Positions 52,200 through 56,550 of a DNA stretch of 64,000 nucleotides are shown piece by piece. The notes under the pieces were generated by a model. That model was given only the letters and a program-made list of their open reading frames with translations, ran no database searches and was not told where the DNA came from. A program made the position numbers and the translations under genes. Origin of the DNA: Lachnospiraceae bacterium AC2028 (GTDB taxonomy: Bacteria; Bacillota; Clostridia; Lachnospirales; Lachnospiraceae); contig JNJD01000012.1 in NCBI GenBank assembly GCA_000702685.1, positions 62,001 to 126,000 on the forward strand. The letters are read 5' to 3'. Each line of letters begins with the position of its first letter. Positions within the stretch are counted from its first letter, which is position 1.

Positions 52200-52370
52200 T
52201 TATGCCTGCTCGATTGCGCCTACAGGGCACTGTCCTGCGCATGCTCCGCAGTCGATGCACTTTTCGGGATCAATCTCGAACTTGCCGTCTGCCATGGAGA
52301 TAGCGCCAACGGGGCACTGAGCCTCGCAAGAACCGCAGCAGATACATCCGTCACCAATCTTATATGCCAT
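52200..52370 (-). CDS. 2[4Fe-4S] ferredoxin
   Basis: The protein has 56 residues from ATG 52370, behind AGGAGG. Two cluster motifs are present, CICCGSCEAQCPVGAI and CIDCGACAGQCPVGAI, the clostridial type. It is a small cytoplasmic electron carrier, for instance for pyruvate oxidation or radical SAM enzymes. It has its own terminator and a -10 (TATAAT, 52430-52435). Confidence 0.95.
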   Translation of the reverse strand: MAYKIGDGCICCGSCEAQCPVGAISMADGKFEIDPEKCIDCGACAGQCPVGAIEQA

Positions 52371-52470
52371 AATAACACCTCCTTCTGATTCGTCCATTCG
52401 GACATTGGATACCCTACTTATCCATCTGTATTATAGTAATATAATTGTCTGACTATTACAAGAAAAAGAG

Positions 52471-53310: not shown

Positions 53311-53342
53311 AAAACAGGCCCGGAGCTTACGCTTCCGGGCCT
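53311..53342 (-). terminator. Terminator between the pflB-grcA unit and pflA
   Basis: AGGCCCGGA and TCCGGGCCT form a perfect 9-bp stem, followed by GTTTT on the minus strand. It lies 34 bp after the glycyl-radical gene. Confidence 0.8.
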
Positions 53343-53643: not shown

Positions 53644-53847
53644 TTATTGATAGTCGTCGATTCCCTGATGGAGCGTGGGAACACTGCATGCCAGAGGGGT
53701 TCTTGAACAGTCCGTGCAACCCATGGTGGTCACGTCCCTGACATTTTCCGTATCATCAGACGTATCAACATTCACATGTCCGGTGCCGTTTTCGAAACCT
53801 TCATCGAGCATCTTTACGAGATCGTCTATCATGTCTTTTTGATCCAT
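53644..53847 (-). CDS. Small cysteine-containing protein of the pfl locus, unknown function
   Basis: The protein has 67 residues behind AAAGGAG. The first 25 residues (IDDLVKMLDEGFENGTGHVN) align with the start of the radical domain encoded next ([20 protein letters not shown]). The C-terminal half is different and carries CTDC and then a third Cys in RTPLAC. I recognise no family. It may be a partner or regulator that mimics the radical domain, or a decayed duplicate. The intact ribosome site and frame argue for a real protein. Confidence 0.75.
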   Translation of the reverse strand: MDQKDMIDDLVKMLDEGFENGTGHVNVDTSDDTENVRDVTTMGCTDCSRTPLACSVPTLHQGIDDYQ

Positions 53848-53898
53848 TAGGGTCTCCTTTCCGATATTTTATTTCTATACAGTCCCTTCCGGCCAAGG

Positions 53899-53914
53899 CA
53901 GCCCGCAGGCTGCG
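53899..53914. other. Intercistronic hairpin after pflB
   Basis: GCAGCC-CGCA-GGCTGC lies 27 bp after the pflB stop and has no T run. It may stabilise the pflB message or set the ratio of pflB to the downstream subunits. Confidence 0.5.
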
Positions 53915-53940
53915 TAGCCTTCAGAGATTTGAAGCATTTA

Positions 53941-55983
53941 TTACTTGCTGAGATCTACGTCAATGTCTCCTGCAAATACCTTGTCATCCTTGCCGAGTGC
54001 ACCGGGGATGATGGTGAAGGTATTGGAGATTCCGTCCTGAGCATCGTTGAAAGGAAGCTTGGATACGGATGAGAGTGATGCGACAGCACCGTGGGTATCT
54101 CTACCATGCATCGGGTTAGCTCCGGGTGCGAAAGGCATTCCCTTCTTACGTCCGTCGGGAGTGTTACCGGTTGCCTTACCGTAGGTAACGTTGGAAGTGA
54201 TGGTAAGGATAGAGGTGGTAGGAACACCGTCTCTATAGGTGTGGTGACGGCGTACAGCGGTCATGAACTTGTGAACGATCATCTGAGCGATCTCGTCTAC
54301 GCGGTCATCATCATTTCCGTACTTAGGGAACTCACCGGTGGTCTTGAAGTCGGTGATGATACCGTCTTCGTCACGGATAACTTCAACCTTAGCGTACTTG
54401 ATAGCTGAAAGTGAGTCAGCAACGATTGAAAGACCTGCGATACCGGTTGCGAAATATCTCTTAACGTTCTTGTCATGAAGAGCCATCTCTGCTCTCTCAT
54501 AGCAGTACTTGTCGTGCATATAGTGGATGATGTTGAGGGTGTTAACGTAAACCTCAGCCTGCCACTCCATCATGTCGATGAACTTGTCCATAACATCATC
54601 ATAGTCAAGGACGTCACCGGTTACAGGGCGGTACTTAGGTCCAACCTGCTTCTTGGTAACTTCATCGATACCACCGTTAAGAGCATAAAGGAGACACTTA
54701 GCAAGGTTAGCACGTGCTCCGAAGAACTGCATCTCTTTACCGATAACCATGGAGGATACGCAGCAAGCGATTCCGTAATCGTCGCCGTGAACTACTCTCA
54801 TGAGGTCATCGTTCTCGTACTGGATCGAAGAAGTGGTGATGGAGATCTTAGCACAGTACTTCTTCCAGTTCTGAGGAAGTCTGGTTGACCAGAGAACGGT
54901 AAGGTTGGGCTCGGGAGCTGCTCCAAGGTTCTCAAGGGTGTGGAGGTAACGGAAAGAGGTCTTGGTGACCATATGTCTTCCGTCAACGCCTACGCCGCCG
55001 AGAGACTCGGTAACCCAAACGGGATCGCCTGCGAAGATCTGGTTGTACTCGGGTGTTCTTGCGAACTTGACACAACGAAGCTTCATGATGAAGTGATCTA
55101 TGAACTCCTGGATCTGCTCCTCGGTGAAGGTTCCGTTTGCAAGGTCACGCTCTGCATATATATCAATGAAAGTGGAGGTACGGCCAAGGCTCATTGCTGC
55201 ACCGTTCTGCTCCTTAACGGATGAAAGGTATCCGAAATAGGTCCACTGGATAGCTTCCTGTACGTTAGCAGCGGGCTTGGAGATATCGCATCCGTAAGAT
55301 GCAGCCATCTCTTTCATCATCTTGAGAGCCTTGATCTGCTCGCTGAGCTCTTCACGGAGACGGATGACATCATCGGTCATAACGTAATCGGTGGAAAGCT
55401 TCTGCTCTTCCTTGTCCTCGATAAGTCTGTCGATTCCGTAAAGAGCAACTCTACGGTAGTCGCCGATGATACGGCCTCTTCCGTAAGCATCGGGAAGACC
55501 GGTAATGATGTGAGAAGTACGGCAAGCTCTCATCTCGGGAGTGTAAGCATCGAAGCATCCCTCGTTGTGAGTCTTACGGTTTACTGCAAAGAAAGCGGAA
55601 ACTTCGGGATCAACCTCGTATCCGTTGTCCTGGCATGCCTTCTCAGCCATTCTGAGTCCGCCCCAAGGCTGAAGTGAACGCTTGAAGGGCTTGTCGGTCT
55701 GGAAGCCGACGATCTTCTCCTTGCTCTTGTCAAGGTATCCGGGGCCATGAGAAACGATAGTTGAAACAACCTTGGTGTCCATATCAAGAACGCCGCCTGC
55801 TTCTCTTTCCTTCTTCTGAAGATCAAGGACCTGTGCCCAAAGATCCTTGGTAGCCTGTGTAGGTCCTGCAAGGAAGCTCTCATCGCCGTCATAGGGATGA
55901 TAGTTTCTCTGGATGAAGTCACGGACATTTATTTCTTTGTCCCACTTACCTGTTTTGAAATCCTGCCATTCAGGTCTTTCCAT
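53941..55983 (-). CDS. pflB: Pyruvate formate-lyase core without glycyl-radical domain
   Basis: The protein has 680 residues against about 760 in the full-length family. It converts pyruvate and CoA to acetyl-CoA and formate. The catalytic pair is Cys407-Cys408 in GIACCVSSM. Other landmarks are [25 protein letters not shown] and [20 protein letters not shown]. The chain stops after GDIDVDLSK, exactly where the radical domain (with the essential Gly) should begin. That domain is encoded separately at 53376. Codon use is that of a very highly expressed gene. The start is behind AGGAGG. Confidence 0.96.
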
Positions 55984-56061: not shown

Positions 56062-56091
56062 ATTATAGAAAATCTTGTATACATTAGTCAA
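56062..56091 (-). promoter_or_regulatory. pflB promoter
   Basis: On the minus strand TTGACT (56086-56091), an 18-bp spacer and TATAAT (56062-56067). The spacer carries TTGTATACAT, and an inverted copy GTGTATACAA lies upstream at 56144-56153, possible regulator sites. Confidence 0.7.
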
Positions 56092-56268: not shown

Positions 56269-56550
56269 ATGAGCACCGAAAATATGGAAAACAATATGGC
56301 TGAAAACACCGAAGAATCTTCGGAAAACATTCTTGAAGCACACGGCATAAGAGCGGATATGACTCTCGGCGAGATCATGCAGACAAAGCCCGAAGTCATC
56401 CCCATTCTGATGGAGGCCGGAATGCACTGTATCAGCTGTCCCGCAGCTATGATGGAGACTCTCGAAGAAGCATCCATCGTGCACGGCATCCCCGTTGATG
56501 AGCTTATGAAGTTCATCAAGGAATCCCTCGAAAGAGAAGGCAACGAATAA
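56269..56550 (+). CDS. DUF1858 domain protein (redox-disulfide type)
   Basis: The protein has 93 residues. The DUF1858 core is DMTLGEIMQTKPEVIPILME, then GMHCISCPAAMMETLEEA, then HGIPVDELMKFI. The CISC motif is the conserved CxxC of this family, which is often linked to hybrid-cluster proteins and iron-sulfur or nitrosative-stress repair. An N-terminal acidic tail of about 25 residues is extra. It is divergent from pflB. Confidence 0.9.
   Translation: MSTENMENNMAENTEESSENILEAHGIRADMTLGEIMQTKPEVIPILMEAGMHCISCPAAMMETLEEASIVHGIPVDELMKFIKESLEREGNE

Follow-up and report, generated by a model that had tools for sequence, protein, structure and literature searches.

In many bacteria of the gut and rumen, pyruvate formate-lyase (PFL) consists of two chains. 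Nearly all such two-piece PFLs examined here carry a short two-cysteine peptide, either on the tail of the catalytic chain PflB or on a separate small protein, and the 67-residue protein encoded in the window (the whole 64,000-nucleotide stretch of DNA that was analysed) is of the second kind. We conclude that this protein, Cys67, is an accessory subunit of a two-chain PFL and the trans version of a PflB C-terminal two-cysteine arm, that is, the detached cysteine arm of a split PFL combined with a docking element copied from the radical domain. This anatomy and the equivalence of the cis and trans forms are in our judgement very likely to be correct, because the two forms are reciprocally present and appear to have been swapped repeatedly. 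In gut and rumen anaerobes PFL has a central place in fermentation, and oxygen destroys it at the radical; the two-cysteine peptide probably looks after the exposed active site of the enzyme.

That PFL can be split, with a radical subunit that is replaceable, is already known from the NCBI-curated family GrcA3. What is new is that split PflBs without a Cys67 gene bear a two-cysteine peptide on their own C-terminus. Among the titles and abstract openings of the open-licence literature we found no account of a Cys67-like protein, of split PFL in Lachnospiraceae or of a two-cysteine PFL tail, and no described third part of a split PFL. If our interpretation is true, PFL here is a three-part, field-repairable enzyme consisting of a catalytic core, a disposable radical cartridge and a thiol caretaker. 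Glycyl radical enzymes could then have a dithiol arm, which would be a new type of accessory subunit for the superfamily.

The Cys67 gene and its neighbours

The operon runs in the order pflB, Cys67, radical subunit, pflA and small ferredoxin (Table 1), and a ferredoxin gene resembling the one in the window comes after pflA in many relatives. The initial annotation had described a 67-residue cysteine protein between two PFL halves, with a good ribosome site; both points are borne out, as pflB and the radical subunit gene flank the minus-strand ORF, which starts with ATG behind an AAGGAG. The C-terminus of the window PflB has neither a cysteine nor a glycyl radical loop. A promoter-like site ahead of pflB, a hairpin and an inverted repeat are weakly compatible with a single transcript whose parts might be present at different levels. 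Divergent from pflB lies a gene for a DUF1858 protein with an MHCISCPA motif, and an ORF resembling it comes after pflA in another genome (L115 of G097).

Table 1. Positions in the window of Cys67, its parts and the surrounding features.
Feature	Position	Strand	Basis
Cys67 (67-aa small subunit; docking element and two-cysteine arm)	53644..53847	-	ORF, homologues, dN/dS
Docking element, Cys67 residues 3-32 (helix and HVNV strand)	53752..53841	-	Homologous to radical subunit residues 5-34 (hhalign)
Cysteine arm, Cys67 residues 44-64 (CTDCSRTPLACSVPTLHQGID)	53656..53718	-	Alignment of 50 homologues
Codon of Cys67 C44	53716-53718		Not invariant
Codon of Cys67 C47	53707-53709		Invariant
Codon of Cys67 C54	53686-53688		Invariant
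Ribosome binding site AAGGAG of Cys67	53854..53859	-	6 bases ahead of ATG
pflB, catalytic half, 680 aa	53941..55983	-	TIGR01255 1088 bits, model 2-665 of 744
PflB active-site pair C407-C408, codons	54760-54765	-
Standalone glycyl radical subunit (NCBIfam GrcA3), 81 aa	53376..53621	-	NF038360 158.2 bits, cut-off 158
Radical Gly56 of the radical subunit, codon	53454-53456	-
pflA, PFL-activating radical SAM enzyme, 260 aa	52513..53295	-	TIGR02493 286 bits, cut-off 231.75
Small dicluster ferredoxin	52200..52397	-
Sigma-70-type promoter-like site ahead of pflB	56062..56091	-	Consensus match only, 11/12 bases
Hairpin between pflB and Cys67	53848-53943	-	-28 kcal/mol, z -1.87; 9/200 shuffles fold equally well
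GC-rich inverted repeat between radical subunit gene and pflA	53316-53342
DUF1858 protein, divergent from pflB	56269-56550	+

Compared with its 11 nearest named relatives (L182-L192), Cys67 has dN/dS values of 0.04-0.12 at dS values of 0.7-1.5, which indicates a protein-coding gene under purifying selection. We searched for homologues in a family sample of 199 Lachnospiraceae genomes, one per genus. Matches at E <= 0.1 occurred in 61 of the 199 genomes and were clear (E <= 1.8e-5) in 52. The protein is thus conserved, and 50 of these 52 genomes have its gene flanked by pflB and the radical subunit gene. The two exceptions are G006, a 67% complete assembly in which the radical subunit was not found, and G002, where the gene is elsewhere. 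A pattern scan of named genomes yielded 528 related stretches, and the order pflB, Cys67, radical subunit held in all of the best 80, nearly all of them labelled Lachnospiraceae or genera of that family; as these 80 were picked by closeness to the query, the figure says little about exceptions.

Comparison of Cys67 with Pfam, NCBIfam and PHROGs gave only a weak GrcA3 match and one chance-level PHROG. PDB sequences matched neither Cys67, nor its profile, nor a cis tail of PflB, so short a tail being one that may escape detection, and the cysteine arm itself had no Pfam, NCBIfam or PDB sequence match. Two homologues (L059 in G012 and L083 in G026) end straight after GCTDC or GCTTC, which gives them a C-x2-C end; in G012 a TAA is present where relatives continue. 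Both shortened proteins still hold two cysteines.

A putative docking element copied from the radical domain, and a cysteine arm

As judged by profile comparison, the first ~30 residues of Cys67 are homologous to, and copied from, the beginning of the radical domain. The likeness exceeds chance: blastp aligned Cys67 to the radical subunit of the window at 36% identity over 25 residues (E 6e-4, for this single pair), and the Smith-Waterman score of the two proteins was equalled by only 10 of 5000 shuffles. Aligning 50 Cys67 homologues with 23 radical subunits by hhalign gave a probability of 95.8 and an E of 7.7e-9 over 30 columns. The alignment of Cys67 to the radical subunit stops at the start of the would-be glycyl loop, and the GrcA3 model (NF038360) matched residues 4-29 only (E 0.017; 15.2 bits, the cut-off being 158). 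When genomes were scanned with the Cys67 profile, radical subunits too were hit at their N-termini, with E values of 1e-4 to 1e-6. The corresponding segment in E. coli contains the strand that is duplicated by YfiD and pairs with PFL (PMC8683613, in excerpt). That the N-terminus is a true radical-domain copy fits a role on PflB, and we infer that the copied helix and strand, by which the radical domain itself is joined to PflB, may dock Cys67 there.

Past this point the resemblance ends. A glycyl radical loop of the RVSGY type was not found in Cys67, nor was a match to the Pfam Gly_radical family (PF01228), so the protein cannot carry the radical; where the loop would be there is a segment with C44, C47 and C54. 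The alignment with the start of the radical domain and the replacement of the glycyl loop by a cysteine segment had both been noticed in the initial annotation and stand as described. Its description of the whole protein as a mimic of the radical domain holds for the docking half alone, since where the small protein is lacking a two-cysteine peptide of the same kind as the arm sits on the C-terminus of PflB.

In its first ~30 residues, its small size and its service to a PFL that lacks or has lost its radical domain, Cys67 is like GrcA/YfiD and GrcA3, and it shares an operon with GrcA3. It differs from GrcA/YfiD in having no RVSGY loop and no Gly_radical match, and in falling as far below the GrcA3 cut-off as given above.

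A second family of ~65-residue proteins has a similar helix-strand start (L110 2710-2847, L112 1887-2102 and L113 2069-2281). The L110 copy belongs to the genome of the window itself (G000:C6:516209-516346, minus strand) and matches the Cys67 profile at E 1.9e-4. The ends of these proteins differ from that of Cys67 (YHHGRCDVGSP in two of the three), and two of the three members have no Pfam or NCBIfam match.

Six residues are invariant in the 50 Cys67 homologues: D15, G23, C47, A53, C54 and P57. Conservation thereby singles out C47 and C54 as the residues with which to test the role of the arm. The number of cysteines is two in 15 of the small proteins, three in 34 and four in one. C44 is present in 34 of the 50, so CTDC is not the conserved core of the arm and was rejected as a shared functional feature. 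The suggestion that CTDC forms a metal or oxygen sensor is accordingly not supported: C44 is missing in 16 of the 50 homologues, and the motif reduces to two cysteines at variable spacing. Gly43 of the TMGC stretch was considered as a substitute radical glycine and dropped, being present in 36 of the 50. By eye, LACSVPTL in the arm resembles the PflB active-site stretch IACCVSSM, a resemblance that was not used.

The arm in cis and in trans

In split PflBs without an adjoining Cys67, the sequence past ..ALGKDD..GDLDxD runs into a short tail with at least two cysteines, for example ..GCGDMACKVPTLHKGIDDDDNN in L093, ..LDCPDEACRIPNLMEGLDREF in L068 and ..LDCSNGACSTPTLFEGLDNDEE in L124. Among 33 such cis tails, 24 have two cysteines, eight have three and one has four. 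Given a cysteine frequency of 1.4% over PflB as a whole, two would be expected in about 5.5% of random tails of 28 residues. A C.[VIST]P[TN] motif occurs in 19 of the 33 tails, and some others have CAC, CC or CACC without the PT or PN. The last two cysteines are spaced by 0-9 residues, as C-x4-C in 15 of the 33. PflBs with Cys67 nearby, in contrast, have no cysteine after LGK in any of 55 cases.

We then asked how the two forms are distributed among genomes. A standalone radical subunit was defined as a frame of at most 160 aa among the matches listed (down to about E 2e-32), weaker matches not being counted; the G141 frame of 183 aa and the G181 frame of 407 aa therefore did not qualify. Of the 79 family genomes with such a subunit among the matches listed, 50 have an adjacent Cys67, 27 have a cysteine tail on PflB, and in the remaining two (G002 and G129) PflB is tailless and the Cys67 gene lies at another place in the genome. 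The Cys67 of G129 (L111 2230-2481) was missed by the single-sequence search and found with the profile after the rule of Cys67 or cysteine tail had predicted its presence.

Class-level draws outside the family sample gave 18 further genomes with a split PflB, of which five have Cys67, nine a cysteine tail and three neither, one (G389) being unreadable; the rule thus holds in 14 of the 17 readable genomes. In G348 the Cys67 gene sits downstream of the radical subunit gene. The three genomes with neither are G451 and G552, from one genus, and G351, which is 82% complete; their split PflBs have no cysteine tail, and Cys67 was not found in their genomes. In G552 (L275) and G451 (L281) the tail of the split PflB is rich in lysine (..KSA) and has no cysteine arm, and both genomes also encode a full-length PFL.

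The closest solved PFL sequences to the window PflB are PDB 38lb and 38la, both named 'Formate acetyltransferase'. Neither was found by a radical-subunit search of the PDB sequences, and judging from their sequences they appear to lack the radical domain. Chain 38lb_A runs past ALGK into GECDMC, a C-x2-C tail, and is thus of the cis-tail kind, whereas the window PFL is of the separate-protein kind. As 38lb starts this tail, structural data on the cis form may already exist; we found no paper on 38lb or 38la in the open-licence literature.

We examined the history of the two forms on a PflB core tree and on a second tree. The first, a quick IQ-TREE run on 98 rows in which 42 of the 95 inner branches have poor support, left out L002, L017 and L074 as too short, L095 and L126 because the junction motif was unmatched, duplicates, and L133. 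Cis and trans states required 11 changes on it, against means of 26.6 and 32.6 after shuffling, and its starred branches force at least four changes for the cis label and at least six for the trans label. The two states thus appear to have swapped repeatedly along the tree.

One-chain PFLs served as controls (n = 25; 12 from the class draw and 13 family members chosen for the best radical-domain scores), and 24 of the 25 have no cysteine between ALGK and the radical domain. The exception is L168 (G096), whose junction holds TCGCEEVTC, a cysteine insert at precisely this point. In the second tree (82 rows), L168 and a one-chain clade of L169-L173 (99*) are nested in a split clade (95*). L169-L173 have no junction cysteine, and Cys67 was not found in their genomes (G074, G108, G142, G174 and G011). 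On a simple reading, L169-L173 were re-fused and lost the arm; alternatively, several independent splits might account for the same pattern, and this tree carries a long-branch warning for other parts of it. The absence of the arm from these nested one-chain enzymes ties it to the two-chain state. Under either history the arm accompanies that state, and L168 is a one-chain enzyme that retains it.

A possible role at the active-site cysteines

The docking site, the thiol chemistry and the timing of Cys67 action we infer as follows. When PflB lacks its radical subunit, or has lost it through oxygen damage, its C407-C408 pair would lie open, and the copied docking element would seat Cys67 at the vacant radical-subunit site on PflB. 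The flexible arm would then bring C47 and C54 to PflB and occupy the vacated site. There, through dithiol exchange, it might hold C407-C408 as thiols or restore them to thiols, and so service or shield these cysteines until a fresh radical subunit docks.

Several considerations led us to this proposal. If the radical domain is separate and replaceable, the active-site cysteine pair must be open at times. The chemistry of E. coli PFL passes through the adjacent pair C418/C419 (PMC10591478, in excerpt), whose counterpart in the window PflB is C407-C408. The only feature common to all cis and trans versions of the arm is its thiol pair; as this alone is kept and PFL works through adjacent cysteines, we propose that the arm services that pair. 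The spacing of the arm cysteines varies, which is easier to reconcile with a flexible dithiol than with a fixed metal site. An arm that moves between cis and trans and is absent from whole chains would give a testable account of how the catalytic cysteines of an opened radical enzyme are protected or repaired.

Ribonucleotide reductases offer an analogy. The C-terminus of E. coli NrdA carries a C-x4-C pair. Reductases including NrdJa/NrdJb place a cysteine pair at a flexible C-terminus, which may belong to the main chain or to a small subunit of its own (excerpts of PMC4520616 and PMC5704485); the arm of split PFL has the same layout, two cysteines close to a flexible C-terminus of either PflB or Cys67. 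In the split class II enzyme the small subunit NrdJb mediates dithiol exchange at the NrdJa active site (PMC4520616, in excerpt), which by analogy could be a precedent for a separate dithiol subunit. Searches of PDB sequences revealed no homology between the arm and the reductases, although tails this short may escape such searches; PFL itself does not act as a reductase, and an exchange at its active site by the arm is our proposal.

Other observations count against the arm as a dithiol caretaker of C407-C408. The literature consulted reveals no need for a reductant in the PFL cycle, and Cys67, through its copied docking element, and the radical subunit would be rivals for a single site, so that an ordered exchange would be required. 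The arm is not uniform, being short in G012 and G026 and reduced to CAC, CC or CACC in some tails. L168 keeps its cysteine insert although it is a one-chain enzyme, and no arm was found in G451, G552 and G351. We therefore put this role forward tentatively, at somewhat less than an even chance. The fuller statement, that split PFLs use a mobile peptide with two cysteines, attached in cis or borne by a subunit with a pirated radical-domain docking element, to service the catalytic cysteine pair between radical-subunit exchanges, is a shade more tentative again.

AlphaFold models of artificial in-frame read-through fusions were too poor to interpret, with a mean pLDDT of 33.5 for PflB-Cys67-radical subunit of L231 (14 rows) and of 47.3 for PflB-Cys67 of the window (39 rows). 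A Foldseek search with the latter model, at that mean pLDDT, returned only PFLs, at TM <= 0.47.

Among the alternatives, the arm might instead be a short linear motif for assembly or recognition, which recruits or locks the radical subunit (or PflA) onto PflB, its cysteines being structural or forming a disulfide clamp. The tie of the arm to the two-chain state and its absence from the nested L169-L173 would be expected of such a motif, and residues other than cysteine are also conserved (A53 and P57 in the small proteins, C.[VIST]P[TN] in the majority of cis tails). In E. coli, PflB residues just ahead of the break and the YfiD N-terminus matter for YfiD binding and activation (PMC8683613, in excerpt). 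But the C.[VIST]P[TN] motif is missing from 14 of the 33 cis tails, whereas two or more cysteines are present in every one, making the thiols the most constant part, and tails such as DQGCCEDNID give little else to recognise. We consider such a motif unlikely.

Distinctly less likely is a metal or iron-sulfur site, in which the two arms of a PflB dimer, or one arm and other ligands, hold zinc or an Fe-S cluster. Three or more cysteines are found in 34 of the 50 small proteins and nine of the 33 tails, and benzylsuccinate synthase likewise has small cysteine-containing accessory proteins, BssB and BssC, encoded with a glycyl radical enzyme. These are [4Fe-4S] subunits, one of which promotes thiyl radical formation, and BSS beta affects that step (PMC12590467, in excerpt). 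Cys67 differs from BssB and BssC, however, in that it and the arm have two to four cysteines at loose spacing, match no such Pfam or NCBIfam family and have a radical-domain-like docking element instead. Four cluster ligands in a fixed pattern, as in Fe-S small subunits, do not occur in the 50 Cys67 homologues. Against a metal site also stand the 24 tails and 15 small proteins with only two cysteines, spaced by 0 to 9 residues, the incomplete conservation of C44 and the lack of any Pfam, NCBIfam or PDB sequence match for the arm.

Ranking slightly lower still, an arm thiol might act as a hydrogen-atom donor for the glycyl or thiyl radical, thereby switching PFL to a non-radical, oxygen-safe state. 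The placement of the L168 insert at the junction beside the radical domain, which brings thiols near the glycyl radical, would suit such a safety device, as would the passage of the E. coli radical via the C418/C419 pair (PMC10591478, in excerpt). A one-chain PFL would need the arm equally, yet 24 of the 25 have no junction cysteine. Finally, that Cys67 is non-functional, whether as a radical-domain duplicate in decay or as an ORF that arose by chance, is very improbable: the protein is short, is cut off early in G012 and G026 and was not found in G451, G552 and G351, but its low dN/dS at appreciable dS, its residues invariant across 50 homologues and its retention at a hotspot of compact operons all speak against decay.

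Apart from the operons described above, extra standalone radical subunit genes occur with no pflB in the fetched stretch (L077, L089, L091, L094, L096, L097, L098, L099 and L114). Judged by eye from their neighbours, they are mostly in genomes that also hold a full operon, and they look like spare-part copies. A thioredoxin-like ORF lies directly after the radical subunit gene of L114.
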